A stretch of 53,486 bases of DNA from an uncultured Legionellales bacterium (GTDB lineage Bacteria; Pseudomonadota; Gammaproteobacteria; Eutrophobiales; Eutrophobiaceae). The translations under genes and the position numbers were made by a program. Below the pieces are notes generated by a model. It did not search any database. It saw only the letters and a program-made list of their open reading frames with translations, and had not been told where the DNA came from. This document shows positions 30,513-52,687 of this stretch, piece by piece. How positions within the stretch are numbered: the first letter of the stretch is position 1; every line of letters starts with the position of its first letter. Where the stretch lies: contig CAJWRJ010000008.1 in assembly GCA_913046215.1 (NCBI GenBank), positions 1 through 53,486 of the forward strand, in the 5' to 3' direction.

Positions 30513-30637
30513 TATATATTTATATTTTTATTAGTATTTTATATATTTGCATCTATGCTTAGGCTAGTGTTTTATGTGAAAGTAAGACTAAGGTCAAGCA
30601 TGATATTTAATTTTTTTTCAATACTTGGATATAAACT

Positions 30638-31021
30638 ATGACAAATTACATAACTGACTGCGTTAGCAAGGATTTAGAGCCTATACATAGAGCTGAAAAA
30701 CTTCAGCAAGAGGCTGCAAAATACGGTTTCGATTGGGTAAGAAGTTTACACATTATTAAAAAAATTGAAGAAGAATTACACGAAGTAGAAGCTGTTCTAG
30801 ATGATAGAATTAAATTAGCTGAAGAATTAGGTGATCTCATTTTCAGCTGTATTAATCTGGCAAGATATCATCAAATTGATACGAAACTGGTTTTACAACA
30901 GACAAATAATAAATTTGTCAAACGTTTGAATTACATTGAAGACTCACTAAAAAGCAAAGGAAAATCTTTATTAGATGCAAATTTAGAGGAGATGGATGCT
31001 TTATGGAATGAAGCAAAGTAA
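30638..31021 (+). CDS. MazG-like nucleotide pyrophosphohydrolase
   Basis: This 127-residue all-alpha protein has the MazG metal-binding pattern: KIEEELHEVEAVL, then AEELGDLIFSCINLARY, and a KFVKRLNYIEDSL helix. These proteins hydrolyse non-canonical or stress-associated NTPs. It is about half the length of E. coli MazG and corresponds to a single catalytic domain (C-terminal-like). It ends five bases from the convergent BamE-like gene. Confidence 0.85.
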   Translation: MTNYITDCVSKDLEPIHRAEKLQQEAAKYGFDWVRSLHIIKKIEEELHEVEAVLDDRIKLAEELGDLIFSCINLARYHQIDTKLVLQQTNNKFVKRLNYIEDSLKSKGKSLLDANLEEMDALWNEAK

Positions 31022-31026
31022 ACGTT

Positions 31027-31320
31027 TCATTTAACACGGTATCTGTCACGTTTTATAAGCTTGCCATTTGAATCGAATTTTATTTCAGTAATCCACTTGT
31101 TGTTACTGCTATGATTTGGTATATAAAACCAAGTCTTGCTTAACGTGTAGTCTAGTCGATCACTTCTTATGGTTTCGTGATCTGATGGACCAAATTTATA
31201 GAGGACTTCAGCTTCAGACATTCCTGTTCTTAATGTTATATAGTCCCGCATTTCAATAGCAGCTGAATACACTAAAGAGCTATATAAATAGGTAACAAGT
31301 ACAAATAGATATTTCTTCAT
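31027..31320 (-). CDS. Small BamE/SmpA-like periplasmic protein
   Basis: The 97 residues include a signal peptide (about 1-20, ending VYSA without a lipobox). The rest, LRTGMSEAEVLYKFGPSD, a TWFYIP strand and ITEIKFDSNGKLIKRDR, is the BamE/OmlA-like fold. It is not BamE itself since it lacks the lipid-anchor cysteine. Function unknown. It lies 34 bases downstream of folE2 on the same strand. Confidence 0.7.
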   Translation of the reverse strand: MKKYLFVLVTYLYSSLVYSAAIEMRDYITLRTGMSEAEVLYKFGPSDHETIRSDRLDYTLSKTWFYIPNHSSNNKWITEIKFDSNGKLIKRDRYRVK

Positions 31321-31354: not shown

Positions 31355-32170
31355 TTATTTACTCTTTTTCTTTTTGTCACAGGTAAGCATTGCATATGCA
31401 GAATGGTTGTGAATTGACTCAAAGTTTTCAGACTCAACAGTATAAGCAGCTATACGATCATCGTTATTAAATTCGACAGCGATATCTCGTACAAGATCTT
31501 CTACAAATTTAGGATTATCATAGGCTTTTTCTGTAACATACTTTTCGTCTGGACGTTTTAGTAAGCCATATAATTCACATGATGCAACTTTTTCGATTAC
31601 TTCTAATAACTCTTCTATCCAAATAAAATCATTCATTTCAACACAAGCTGTTATTCGTGATCGTTGGTTATGTGCACCATAGTCAGAAATATTTTTTGAA
31701 CAAGGACAAAGAGAAGTAACCGGCACTTCAACTTTGACTAAAACCTCAGGTTTTCCATTTTCAATTTTACCTATAAACGAAACAACATAATCCATTAAGC
31801 TTTCAACTCCTGATACTGGCGCAGCCTTATTAACAAAGTAGGGAAATGTCATTTCTACGTTGCCTGATTCCGCATTCAGAAGTTCTGTCATTTCTTCGAT
31901 CATGCGCTTAAAGGATTTTACTGTAATTTCATATTCATGATTATTTAGAATTTCGACAAAACGAGACATATGTGTGCCTTTATATTGATCAGGCAAGTTA
32001 ACGTACATATTAAAGTTTGCTACGGTGTGCTGTTCTCGACCCGAACGGTCTTTAACAACGACAGGATGTTTAATATCTTTAATTCCAACTTTGTCTATAG
32101 ATATATGCCTGGTATCTTTACTACTTTGAATATCAGGTATGTTTGAAATAATAGGTGCAGCTTTATTCAT
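31355..32170 (-). CDS. folE2: GTP cyclohydrolase FolE2
   Basis: It converts GTP to dihydroneopterin triphosphate, the entry to folate and, where made, to H4MPT. It is the type IB enzyme, recognised by SLCPCSK (Cys155, Cys157), [16 protein letters not shown] and the C-terminal [10 protein letters not shown]. The 271 residues are typical. FolE2 does not strictly need zinc, unlike FolE, and is often found in cells that face zinc shortage. It lies 62 bases after ispA. No folE is present in this window. Confidence 0.96.
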
Positions 32171-48273: not shown

Positions 48274-48804
48274 TTAGGGGTTCAAGATAATATCTTTTCC
48301 TATAACTTTTAGTGCTGCTCTCTTTGAGCCAGTTAGAGAAAAACTCGTTTCTTTATAACTTCCGTTATCTAATACGAATCTAAAAGTTACTTCATTTCCA
48401 TTTAGTAAGGCATCAAGTGATAGCGAGGAAATTTGATTATTCGTTATATAGCCTAGTATAAATTCACTCCAGTTTAAATTAGAAATACAGGGAGCATCAT
48501 TAAAAGAGGTATTTTTTACTAGTGTCAGGTCCACTTGATAGGTAGGACATATATCTGTTGATATAAGATTAAGTGAAGAGTTAAGGGTGAAGCGAGATCT
48601 CACAGAACCTACGTTATCTTTATAGATTTCCAGACTATAACCACTCTTGTTTTCCGTATACGCTACTTGCGTTTTTAAATCATTATTTAAACTAGTATGT
48701 GTTATGATATTCCACTCAGCGGAGACGCTTAGAGGTGTCATAAAAACAATAAATAAATATATTATACTGAAATTCTTATTATATTTTCTATTTTGTATGT
48801 TCAT
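48274..48804 (-). CDS. Predicted exported protein of unknown function
   Basis: This 176-residue protein has a basic start and a hydrophobic stretch ending LSVSA (about residue 29), so it is exported. The mature part is beta-rich with two cysteines (ICPTYQ and APCIS), likely a disulfide, and closes with SFSLTGSKRAALKVIGKDIIL. I recognise no family with confidence. It lies just upstream of aat and may share its transcript. Confidence 0.65.
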   Translation of the reverse strand: MNIQNRKYNKNFSIIYLFIVFMTPLSVSAEWNIITHTSLNNDLKTQVAYTENKSGYSLEIYKDNVGSVRSRFTLNSSLNLISTDICPTYQVDLTLVKNTSFNDAPCISNLNWSEFILGYITNNQISSLSLDALLNGNEVTFRFVLDNGSYKETSFSLTGSKRAALKVIGKDIILNP

Positions 48805-48886: not shown

Positions 48887-49927
48887 ATGAACCGAAGGAC
48901 CTTTCTAAATAGCATTCTATCAACCTTACTGTATATTACACATAGGCAATTATCAGCCGCAGAAGCTCTAGTGAAAAAAGATAGTGATTTTCTTAAAGTC
49001 GAAAATTTAGAGAAAAATAATACTACTATTATGGTGGATCCGGTATTTTTAGAGCATCACATAGGACCAACTCACCCAGAAAGCCCCTCCAGGATCCAGC
49101 ACATTGAGAGAGCATTAATAGAAAGTAATTTATTTGAAATTACTAAATCAGTTGGTTTAAAAAATGACATATATAAATGGATTGAGACTGTACATACTAA
49201 GAATCACATCAAATCTATTAGAGAATCTACACCAATAGCAAACAAAGTAGCAACTGCTGCTGTAAATGCAGCCCTCTCAGCAGTGGATTCAATTATGCAC
49301 AATAATTCAACTAATGTATTTTGCGCTACAAGGCCACCGGGACACCATGCTCTGAATACCGGAAGAGAGGAGGGTTTTTGTTATTACAATCATGTTGCTA
49401 TTGCAGCTAAGTATGCCCAAGAAAAATACAACTTAAAAAGAATTTTAATTATTGACTGGGATTATCATCATGGGAATTCAACGGAAGCAATTTTTTATAC
49501 TGATCCAAGTGTTTTATTTTTTTCAACACATGATAAAAATGCATATCCAGGAACTGGCGATCCATTGAAAACGGGAAGTGGTGATGGAGAAGGTTACAAT
49601 ATAAATGTCCACTTACCTTGTGGAACTAGCGATAGAATAATAATTAAAAAATTTAATGAAATATTATTACCAAAAGCAAGAAAATTTAAGCCAGATCTAG
49701 TACTAATATCAGCTGGATTTGATAGTAGAAAGGATGATTTATTGGGATGCTTTAGTATTACTGATTCTGGTTTTATTGAACTTACAAAAATTGCTATGAC
49801 TATAGCAAATGAATTTTGTAATAATCGCTTAGTTTCGGTTTTAGAAGGCGGTTATAATTTAGACGGTAATGCAAAAGCTGTTGTTGCTCATGTCTCCACG
49901 CTGAAGAATAATATGCATACTAGTTAA
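48887..49927 (+). CDS. Histone-deacetylase-family hydrolase with Tat-type signal
   Basis: This 346-residue zinc hydrolase of the arginase/deacetylase fold shows RPPGHHALNTGREEGFC, DWDYHHGNST (metal Asp and His) and YPGTGDP. The family includes acetoin-utilisation and acetylpolyamine deacetylases. The first residues, NRRTFLNSIL followed by a hydrophobic stretch and QLSAAEA, read as a twin-arginine signal, so the enzyme may be exported folded. Substrate is unknown; an acetylated amine or amide in the periplasm is plausible. It is a single gene flanked by divergent and convergent neighbours. Confidence 0.88.
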   Translation: MNRRTFLNSILSTLLYITHRQLSAAEALVKKDSDFLKVENLEKNNTTIMVDPVFLEHHIGPTHPESPSRIQHIERALIESNLFEITKSVGLKNDIYKWIETVHTKNHIKSIRESTPIANKVATAAVNAALSAVDSIMHNNSTNVFCATRPPGHHALNTGREEGFCYYNHVAIAAKYAQEKYNLKRILIIDWDYHHGNSTEAIFYTDPSVLFFSTHDKNAYPGTGDPLKTGSGDGEGYNINVHLPCGTSDRIIIKKFNEILLPKARKFKPDLVLISAGFDSRKDDLLGCFSITDSGFIELTKIAMTIANEFCNNRLVSVLEGGYNLDGNAKAVVAHVSTLKNNMHTS

Positions 49928-49961: not shown

Positions 49962-50303
49962 TTATTGAGAATCTACATCTTTACTTGGTTTTGTGTAGAC
50001 GGGAAATGGCATAATATTCTCATTCTCACCATCTCGATTTGAAATCTTTGCCGAACCTTGTTTTTCAACTTCATCAATTCTTATAATTGCATGCATTGGA
50101 ATATAGGTTCTATCAACACCACTAAATTCATTTTTTAAATTTTCTTCACTTGGATCTACAACAACTGAAGATTTTTCCCCAAATAAGAGTTTTTCTATTT
50201 CAACGAAACCAAACATTGCGCTGTGATGAACGTTCTTAGCATATATTTCATAGACTTTTCCTTGATTGTGAAATATTACTTTGTATATTTTATCTTTTGA
50301 CAT
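49962..50303 (-). CDS. DUF1820 family protein
   Basis: The 113 residues match DUF1820, a small cytoplasmic family found almost only in gammaproteobacteria: KIYKVIFHNQGKVYEIYAK, GFVEIEKLLFGE and RTYIPMHAIIRIDEVEKQG. Function is unknown. It supports the taxonomic assignment. It is the last gene of the minus-strand group after the AbgT transporter, with a 72-base gap. Confidence 0.9.
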   Translation of the reverse strand: MSKDKIYKVIFHNQGKVYEIYAKNVHHSAMFGFVEIEKLLFGEKSSVVVDPSEENLKNEFSGVDRTYIPMHAIIRIDEVEKQGSAKISNRDGENENIMPFPVYTKPSKDVDSQ

Positions 50304-50375
50304 TTTTATGCTGGACCTCGTTGTTAATAGTGCTCATGTGATTTAGATAAATAATATCATAATTAAATTAAATGA

Positions 50376-51857
50376 CTATATTTGATAAGATAAGTTCCCT
50401 CCAGGTCCCAATGGCCAGCCCATATGCATCCAAAATAATAATAATACGAGCCAAACAATCAAGAAATATATTGTGTAGGGCAACATCATTGAAATAACTG
50501 TGCCCAAACCAGAGCCCTTAAGGTATTTTTTGATTTCTATTAAAATAATAATCATATATGGATTCATCGGGGTAATCACATTTGTAACGGAGTCTCCAAT
50601 TCTGTAACTTAGTTGTGTTAGTTCAGGACTTATTCCAATTTGCATGAGCATTGGTACAAATACAGGTGCAAAAAAAGCATATTTTGCTGAAGATGAGCCA
50701 ATAAATATATTCACTATTGAAGCCATCAAAATAAAGCAACTCAGTAATAATGCATTTTCTATGTCTAGGTTTTTTAGGAATTCTCCTCCAGTAATAGCTA
50801 ATAAGTGCCCTAAGCCTGAATAATTAAAGGCCGCAATAAACTGAGCAGCAAAAAACGCCAGAACAATATATGGACCTAGGGTTGATAGAACGTCGCCAAG
50901 GATTTTTGCTAGATCATTACTATTTTTTATTTTACCACTTAAAATACCGAATATTAGTCCAGGTATAAAAAAAATAATAAAAAGAAGTGGAACTGTTACC
51001 TCTACCCATCTATCAAAATTTTCTCCTTTACCAAATAATGGAGTATTTTCTGAAATTACTGATAAATAAAAAATTGTCAATAAAAATATAAAAGCAAAGA
51101 AGGAAAAGAGCAGGGCTTTGTTATTAGTTTTTTCAGACTTATTATTTTCTTTTATTTTTATAATAGGAGTATTTGCTATTAAAGGGGCAGCTATTTTTTC
51201 AGTCACATACCATCCTGTTAACGTCAAAACTATAGTTGAAGCAATCATAAACCACCAATTTGCAGTAACCGCAACAACATATGATGGCTCTATAATTTGT
51301 GCGCCTAGTTGTGTAAAGCCAGCGAGCAGTGGATCTAGAGCTGTAATAAATAAATTCGCACTGAATCCTGCAGAAACGCCTGCAAATGCAACTGCAATAC
51401 CTAATAAAGGTGAGCGACCTGCGGTTAAATATAGAGAGGCTGCGAGTGGAATAAGTACCACATAACCGGCATCCAGTGCTATGGACGATAGAATACCTAA
51501 AAACATCACCATAGGAGTAAGAAGGCATTCATGAGTTCTAATAGTAATAAATTTTAACAATGCGGGTAAAAAACCAGTTTTTTCTGCAAGACCTATACCC
51601 AACATTCCAACCAATACAATACCTAGAGGAGGGAAGCTAATAAAGTTGTCTACCATACTTGATAGAAACCACCAAATACCGTGTGACGTTAATAAATTAT
51701 TAATAATAACTTCACTACTAGCCGCACTGGTAGTTGTAATATCAAGCTCTGATATAATCATTGATAGAATAAACACCAAGATTGTTCCGAATATAAATAA
51801 AACTGAAGGATCCGGGAGTCTATTACCTAATTTTTGAATTGAATCTAGTAGTTTCAT
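50376..51857 (-). CDS. AbgT family transporter
   Basis: This 493-residue membrane protein of the AbgT family has about 12 spans and begins LGNRLPDPSVLFIFG, with SFPPLGIVLVGMLGIGLAEKTG and a C-terminal GDSVTNVITPMNPYM. E. coli AbgT imports p-aminobenzoyl-glutamate, a folate breakdown product; MtrF and YdaH export sulfonamides and other drugs. Either role is open here. Its start overlaps the alpha/beta hydrolase end by four bases. Confidence 0.9.
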   Translation of the reverse strand: MKLLDSIQKLGNRLPDPSVLFIFGTILVFILSMIISELDITTTSAASSEVIINNLLTSHGIWWFLSSMVDNFISFPPLGIVLVGMLGIGLAEKTGFLPALLKFITIRTHECLLTPMVMFLGILSSIALDAGYVVLIPLAASLYLTAGRSPLLGIAVAFAGVSAGFSANLFITALDPLLAGFTQLGAQIIEPSYVVAVTANWWFMIASTIVLTLTGWYVTEKIAAPLIANTPIIKIKENNKSEKTNNKALLFSFFAFIFLLTIFYLSVISENTPLFGKGENFDRWVEVTVPLLFIIFFIPGLIFGILSGKIKNSNDLAKILGDVLSTLGPYIVLAFFAAQFIAAFNYSGLGHLLAITGGEFLKNLDIENALLLSCFILMASIVNIFIGSSSAKYAFFAPVFVPMLMQIGISPELTQLSYRIGDSVTNVITPMNPYMIIILIEIKKYLKGSGLGTVISMMLPYTIYFLIVWLVLLLFWMHMGWPLGPGGNLSYQI

Positions 51858-52687
51858 CTTTCGAGAATATATTTTAAAAACTTGTCAATACCCTCAGTGT
51901 ATACAGCACCACTTGTTAGATAACCATCGTTATGTAATCCATAAATTTCAAGAAAATGTTTAGGTTCATTCGCAGCTTCAAATAATGCTCTACCAAATTT
52001 ATATGGAACAATATCATCTTCTTTGCTATGTATTAAAAGAATTGGAATATCAATGTTTGGCACTCTTTCAATCGAGGGATAGTAGATATTTGCAAGTATA
52101 GTGATGGGTAAGTACGGATAATTATGTTTTCCCATGTCAATTATGGAGGTAAAGCTTGACTCAACAATCAATGCTAATGATTTATATTTTTTTGCTAACC
52201 AAATAGCAACAGCGCCACCTAGAGATCGACCAAAAATTATAATATCGTCTTCGCTTATATTTTTTTCATTCCTAAGAAAATAAAAAGCAGTTTCAGCATC
52301 AATATATGTTCCATTTTCTGTGGCAATTCCCGAACTATCTCCATATCCTCTGTAATCTATTATAAAAACAGATAAGCCGAGTTGATGAAAAATATTAATA
52401 CTATCTAGTCTGCTCGAAAGATTACCACCATTTCCATGCAAAAAGAGTAAAGTAGCTCTTGGGTTATTATGCGGAATAAACCATGATTTAATTTCTTCAT
52501 TATCTTCTGTTGTTAATGTTATATCTTCATATATTAAATTATAATTTGAAGGAGTGTAATTAGAGCCTTTGGTAGGAACATAGACTAAGTTATTTTGATT
52601 GAAATAGACCATTAATGAAAATAAAATCCAGACTGTAATTAGTATAGTTAATATTGATTTTATTACTTTAAAATATTTTCTTTTCAC
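51854..52687 (-). CDS. Membrane-anchored alpha/beta hydrolase
   Basis: This 277-residue protein has an N-terminal membrane span (about residues 9-29) and a hydrolase domain with FLHGNGGNLSSR (oxyanion region), the nucleophile Ser in GRSLGGA, an Asp in SKEDDIVP and a His in GLHNDGY. It resembles the BEM46/YfhR group of unknown substrate. It is joined to the AbgT gene by a four-base overlap and to the oxidoreductase gene by 13 bases. Confidence 0.9.
   Translation of the reverse strand: MKRKYFKVIKSILTILITVWILFSLMVYFNQNNLVYVPTKGSNYTPSNYNLIYEDITLTTEDNEEIKSWFIPHNNPRATLLFLHGNGGNLSSRLDSINIFHQLGLSVFIIDYRGYGDSSGIATENGTYIDAETAFYFLRNEKNISEDDIIIFGRSLGGAVAIWLAKKYKSLALIVESSFTSIIDMGKHNYPYLPITILANIYYPSIERVPNIDIPILLIHSKEDDIVPYKFGRALFEAANEPKHFLEIYGLHNDGYLTSGAVYTEGIDKFLKYILER

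Follow-up and report, generated by a model that had tools for sequence, protein, structure and literature searches.

Work on classical deacetylases treats them as regulators that act on protein acetylation in the cytoplasm or the nucleus. A gene in the stretch of DNA that was analyzed here (the window, 53,486 nucleotides) raises the question of where such an enzyme acts, as its product joins a histone deacetylase domain to an N-terminus that reads like a twin-arginine (Tat) export signal. The coding sequence occupies positions 48887..49927 on the + strand, starts with ATG and encodes 346 residues, with the stop codon inside the end coordinate; homologues align with it over its full length. In a Pfam profile search, the Hist_deacetyl model (PF00850) matches residues 63-338 with an E-value of 1.4e-83 and a score of 281.1 bits, as compared to a cut-off of 27.9, and positions 1-297 of the 298 in the profile are covered, which bears out the family named in the original prediction. 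A comparison of the window protein with the NCBIfam models gave no match. The catalytic domain (residues 45-341; 49019..49909, + strand) is delimited by PF00850, by an AlphaFold2 model and by superposition on the structure 5ji5. The model, computed from an alignment of 62 sequences, has a pLDDT of 90.2 and an HDAC-like fold. The full-domain profile match, the catalytic and zinc-binding residues and the arginase/deacetylase fold place the protein among the classical zinc-dependent deacylases, and it is the sole PF00850 protein of its genome (G000, 1.40 Mb, 98.8% complete).

The first 27 residues (MNRRTFLNSILSTLLYITHRQLSAAEA; 48887..48967, + strand; longer excerpt MNRRTFLNSILSTLLYITHRQLSAAEALVKK) are predicted to form a Tat signal peptide, based on their sequence, their SPase-I-like sites and conservation among homologues. 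The basic start contains Arg3-Arg4, whose codons lie at 48893..48898 (+ strand), and Arg4 is at least 90% conserved in alignment A1, which holds 61 of the 80 homologous loci together with the window protein. The arginines are followed by Thr, Phe-Leu and a short hydrophobic stretch, after which come an Arg (within HRQL) and the AxA-type sites LSA, SAA and AEA, with cleavage likely after residue 24, 25 or 27, respectively. The Tat signal consensus is given as (S/T)RRxFLK in the available portion of a published study (PMC1182353). The hydrophobic stretch is of moderate strength, with a best 10-residue Kyte-Doolittle mean of 1.67 (FLNSILSTLL), and this modest value fits a Tat signal better than a Sec signal. 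The window sequence thus has RRx(F/L) at the n/h border, a less hydrophobic h-region and an AxA-type site, as expected of a Tat substrate. The letters that had originally been read as a Tat signal (NRRTFLNSIL, a hydrophobic stretch and QLSA) are present, and motif reading supports a signal of this type. The signal is joined to the catalytic domain by a linker (residues 28-44; 48968..49018, + strand) that varies in length among homologues and is in part modeled with low confidence (pLDDT ~50 in the block 31-40).

Homologues were sought in one genome per species, and the best 80 of 226 loci were retained by score using patterns derived from the window protein, a selection from which the share of RR motifs among more distant members cannot be read. 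Two of the 80 (L046 and L098) lie at contig edges and were dropped. Within the best 80 of 226, RRx[FL] occurs in the N-terminal region of 64 of the 78 readable homologues (L108 being counted by direct reading of its N-terminus), ten others, all from alphaproteobacterial single-cell genomes, have KRx[FL], and two (L053 and L069) have a KK-type start with another hydrophobic signal. The signal is absent from two of the 78, L092 and L103, both from Aminicenantes in whose genomes TatC is present. The original prediction had proposed the N-termini of orthologues as its check, and this comparison upholds it. A fairer sample is provided by the Gemmatimonadota, where copies were picked by E-value in whole genomes (L150, at an edge, was dropped): the signal-type enzyme is found in 23 of 150 genomes (E up to 1e-80), and all 23 copies carry RRx[FL]. 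As a chance background, 12 of 1103 neighboring ORFs have RRx[FL][LIVMG] in their first 25 residues, and several of these resemble genuine Tat substrates; judged from these sequences, the motif at the homologue N-termini is not a product of chance. Among the 63 homologues counted, RR is spelled with 21 different codon pairs, and it is therefore the protein sequence, not the DNA, that has been kept. A stricter automatic Tat criterion, in which 13 uncharged residues were required, was passed by 43 of the 78 homologues, and in some rows it was applied from a wrong upstream start. This criterion is too strict because a c-region with Lys/Arg is common among the signals; the Tat counts given here rest on motif reading instead.

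The enzyme family, the intact catalytic residues, the conserved signal, the Tat genes and the clade-wide loss of a loop can all be read from the sequences, and on this basis we consider it probable that the protein is a Tat-exported, signal-cleaved, periplasmic zinc deacetylase that acts on acetylated substrates through an open pocket. The steps of export, cleavage and periplasmic activity are ones that we infer. The enzyme would fold and take up zinc in the cytoplasm, be exported in the folded state by the Tat machinery and then lose its signal peptide, and the mature form would hydrolyze acetyl (short acyl) amides in the periplasm. The alternative in which the signal is not cleaved, so that the enzyme faces the periplasm while tethered to the inner membrane, appears unlikely. 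It would agree with the AlphaFold2 model, which draws residues 3-36 as a single long helix, and with the one RR-bearing N-terminus whose expected range lacks an SPase-I-like site; however, such a site is found in 64 of the 65 RR-bearing N-termini (window included), and the linker that follows is variable and poorly ordered.

The signal-bearing proteins also constitute a distinct clade in which the L2 loop is shortened, a finding that goes beyond the original prediction. In a maximum-likelihood tree of 111 catalytic domains (midpoint root only; the partial L134 and L142 were left out), 84 signal-type rows, of which 68 have RR, ten have KR, four have neither and two are cut, are separated from 27 paralogues by a branch with 100/94 support. 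Some loci obtained from the other genome searches are the same genes as in the best-80 set. Members of the clade come from Gammaproteobacteria (among them Methylophaga muralis and M. lonarensis), alphaproteobacterial single cells, Gemmatimonadota, Chitinivibrionales and Aminicenantes. In the tree, the rows from alphaproteobacteria lie beside the window's own lineage, a placement that points to transfer. A whole-genome search of the window's order recovered the signal-type enzyme in 28 of 53 genomes (E up to 1e-80), and of 369 genomes taken from across the class, 14 have it (E up to 1e-70). L142 (G023:C1, near 648000) is a partial signal-type copy located inside an apparent 24,200-aa open frame, which is probably a run of masked bases.

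The catalytic machinery is intact throughout the clade. His153-His154 within RPPGHH (49343..49348, + strand), Asp192 and His194 within DWDYHHG (49460..49468, + strand, a stretch that also encodes the clade residue Tyr193), Asp279 (49721..49744, + strand, together with the clade-typical Ser280-Arg281 and the gatekeeper Leu286) and Tyr323 within EGGY (49853..49855, + strand) are invariant in the 84 clade rows and the 27 paralogues. Asp192, His194 and Asp279 are assigned as zinc ligands by alignment, with HDAC6 in the case of the first two, whose roles also follow the HDAC6 numbering. RPPGHH and EGGY are both found in 84 of 84 clade members. In the available parts of a 2024 survey of bacterial deacylases, the RPP and XGGY motifs, which line the foot pocket, go with robust deacetylases and not with long-chain deacylases (PMC11532494), and all 84 members carry RPP and EGGY. 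Several other positions distinguish the clade from the paralogues: Tyr193 is present in 83 of 84 clade rows, as compared to Val in 27 of 27 paralogues; Asp, Ser and Arg in the clade correspond to Gln216 (24 of 27 paralogues), Ala280 (26) and His281 (24); and His107 (Tyr in the paralogues), Ala219 (mostly aromatic in the paralogues) and Cys288 are further clade-typical residues.

The largest change is the shortening of the L2 rim loop, in which relatives carry an LDxDT-like segment. An alignment-based count puts 45-47 residues between His103 and Arg149 for 83 of the 84 clade rows (every one of the 23 Gemmatimonadota copies has 45) and 60-63 for 27 of 27 paralogues, such that a segment of ~15 residues is absent around Asn119/Lys120 (49241..49246, + strand). 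The signal and the short loop are not strictly tied, because L122 (G274:C73:4962-5867), at the base of the clade, combines a signal with an unshortened L2 loop, and in the Aminicenantes copies a short loop occurs with no signal; L122 is possibly an intermediate state or a case of independent signal acquisition. A hand alignment with the HDAC8 sequence would place the Asp101-type residue of that enzyme in the deleted piece. The loss of L2 is expected, from the deletion itself, to leave an unusually open pocket, with the rim loop missing whose acidic residue in relatives holds the peptide backbone of the substrate. A pocket-surface Asp/Glu (Asp101 in HDAC8) hydrogen-bonds the substrate peptide bonds, and it is absent from the cluster 4 and 5 enzymes examined in the available sections of the survey (PMC11532494). 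Our guess is that the substrates would be small or flexible acetylated amines, acetyl-lysine or acetylated peptide ends that derive from turnover or from outside, with folded proteins less favored. An envelope substrate is possible. No acetyl-CoA is expected in the envelope, and the substrate would therefore be made elsewhere.

An acetylated polyamine had originally been suggested as the substrate, which would make the protein a periplasmic acetylpolyamine amidohydrolase, and we regard this as quite unlikely. Polyamine deacetylases are described, in the parts of the survey at hand (PMC11532494), as having an extended L2 loop, a Glu gatekeeper and a P[E/A]CE motif as determinants, and all three are absent here. 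L2, whose extended form underlies both the dimer and the specificity of ApaH, is instead shorter than in the paralogues in 83 of 84 clade rows, so that the extended, dimer-forming loop of cluster 4 acetylpolyamine amidohydrolases is missing; the gatekeeper, rather than the Glu of HDAC10-type enzymes, is Leu286 in 83 of 84 rows and Ile in one; and P[EA]CE is found in 0 of 84 members. On the other hand, export and an open pocket would admit small amines, the acidic L2 residue is absent from the clade as it is from the cluster 4 polyamine enzyme PsApaH, and the bacterial ApaH enzymes likewise have no Glu gatekeeper, as stated in the same available sections (PMC11532494), so that a promiscuous amine activity is conceivable. 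Because the bacterial polyamine enzymes are promiscuous, the polyamine proposal retains some probability. The original prediction is therefore supported with respect to the enzyme family, the Tat-type signal and its conservation among orthologues, and departed from with respect to the acetylated polyamine.

Returning to export of the folded enzyme by Tat, the genome of the window encodes TatC together with TatA/B-family genes. On contig C11 of G000, TatC (30594-31223) and two TatA/B-family genes (31372-31521 and 31610-31753) lie adjacent to each other on the - strand. Of 58 relatives, 52 gave a TatC hit, the search being negative in G001, which is of the same genus as the window genome, and TatC was also found in 23 of 25 tested genomes of homologues; its absence from the other two (G058 and G072) may reflect genome incompleteness. 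Three Methylophaga-type genomes, G080, G081 and G082 (loci L049, L057 and L064), have two TatC matches each.

Export by Sec, with the RR pair as a coincidental basic n-region, seems very improbable for the window protein. The alphaproteobacterial KR and KK copies, with their long and strongly hydrophobic segments, do suggest Sec in those genomes. In the gammaproteobacteria and Gemmatimonadota, however, RRx[FL] is kept, the variety of codon pairs noted above argues for retention at the protein level, the h-regions of the 65 RR rows are modest (median best 10-mer 2.0), and 52 of the 65 have Lys/Arg between the h-region and the last candidate site. Since the KR and KK copies contain very hydrophobic, Sec-like segments, Tat is perhaps not universal in the clade, and these alphaproteobacterial copies may use Sec. 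According to the available text of the signal study, Lys is tolerated in place of either Arg, though not of both, in E. coli SufI, and the Salmonella TtrB signal naturally has Lys in the first position (PMC1182353). Loss of Tat as the origin of the alphaproteobacterial RR loss was considered and rejected, as a TatC match is present in 13 of the 14 genomes tested (L050 to L102); among these 13 alphaproteobacterial/'Rickettsiales' genomes, the match in G064 is broken by stops.

A cytoplasmic enzyme whose N-terminal extension is not an export signal would accord with the location of most studied relatives and with the two signal-less Aminicenantes copies, but it is extremely improbable given a signal that is conserved across phyla and absent from 27 of 27 paralogues, and given the presence of Tat genes. 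These sampled signal-less paralogues, taken from the bacterial family and class to which the window belongs and 33-42% identical to the window protein, contain the motif in 0 of 27 cases, and they often share a genome with a signal-bearing copy. In the 24 that have the HPE landmark (L141, in which it is missing, was excluded), the start codon lies 17-19 residues before HPE, that is, at the catalytic domain, whereas the RR-bearing proteins start ~40 or more residues ahead of it.

We next consider the gene neighborhood, in which the lineages of the homologous loci have no neighbor in common with one another. A common operon partner was rejected as the neighbors change with lineage, and because of this the gene context does not name the substrate. 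The window's lineage has Aat, a secreted 176-aa protein, DUF1820, AbgT and an alpha/beta hydrolase as neighbors. The 176-aa protein (48274-48804, - strand) begins with a Sec-like segment and matched neither Pfam nor NCBIfam; its gene is divergent from the deacetylase gene with 82 bases between them, and the two genes adjoin each other in 22 of 81 loci. The DUF1820 protein, the AbgT-family transporter and the alpha/beta hydrolase (49962-52687, - strand) are kept beside the deacetylase in many loci of this lineage; AbgT as a possible clue to p-aminobenzoyl-glutamate was set aside, as the gene is on the opposite strand and the association is limited to one lineage. Methylophaga neighbors comprise a crotonase-like gene and HD-GYP-like regulators. 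The crotonase-family gene, which presumably resembles DSF synthases, lies 54-246 bases downstream on the same strand in the Methylophaga-type loci (L049, L055, L057, L058, L061, L064, L065, L081, L095, L096 and L099), with HD-GYP-like response regulators nearby. In alphaproteobacterial single-cell loci, an HD-domain gene follows the deacetylase, and a small gene of family 22 directly upstream ends 0-9 bases before it in all 11 of the 11 alphaproteobacterial loci that have it (L050, L051, L060, L067, L071, L074, L077, L085, L087, L090 and L102). Two family 22 members were scanned, with no Pfam match above cut-off, and their N-termini look like lipoprotein signals. This adjacency lends mild support to an envelope role for the deacetylase.

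Within the open literature, as judged by title and abstract opening, no Tat-exported or periplasmic enzyme of the HDAC family was found to be described, although automatic Tat annotations may well exist. The terms 'signal peptide', 'signal sequence', 'periplasm' and 'twin-arginine' do not occur in the available main text of the 2024 bacterial deacylase survey (PMC11532494). With an export tag and a trimmed active-site loop that are shared by bacteria of several phyla, the clade has the look of a branch that was overlooked in a familiar enzyme family, one that would operate in an unexpected compartment and that shows a coherent structural change. With slightly less than even confidence, we propose that it constitutes an undescribed, phylum-spanning, envelope-located subfamily of the HDAC fold that has lost the L2 grip loop, acts on some acetylated envelope or environmental molecule, and is the sole HDAC-family enzyme in some streamlined marine bacteria. 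If this exported branch is real, reversible or catabolic deacetylation would also occur in the bacterial envelope. The clade supplies a concrete group of enzymes for testing, among them those of cultured Methylophaga species, that is marked by a defined loop deletion, and it calls for caution against annotating its members as cytoplasmic histone deacetylases or acetylpolyamine hydrolases.

Comparison with known systems places the enzyme closest in fold to the Burkholderia phymatum histone deacetylase superfamily protein (PDB 5ji5), on which the model superimposes over the range 45-341 with a Z of 44.7 and an rmsd of 1.3 Å for 288 aligned residues at 38% identity. The catalytic residues are the same in the alignment, but in 5ji5 the L2 loop is complete and includes a DPDT segment, which the window protein lacks. 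Pseudomonas HDAH and the HDAC6 domains are the next structural neighbors. By sequence, the best PDB matches are the catalytic domains of HDAC6 (class IIb), with which the catalytic residues align and whose second domain has a Leu gatekeeper like that of the window protein; HDAC6 differs in being eukaryotic and in its other rim loops, and to our knowledge it is not a Tat substrate. HDAC10 and an acetylpolyamine aminohydrolase are also among the PDB matches. PsApaH, M. ramosa ApaH and HDAC10 share the fold and the chemistry of the window protein, but ApaH has an extended L2 loop and HDAC10 has a Glu gatekeeper and PECE, none of which is found in the window protein. The signal-less paralogues (e.g. 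L129 and L133) have the same PF00850-type domain, yet they start at the catalytic domain and have an L2 region of 60-63 residues. Finally, the bacterial classical deacylases of clusters 1-5, as described in the available portion of the survey, share with the clade both the HDAC fold and the RPP/EGGY motifs of robust deacetylases (PMC11532494).
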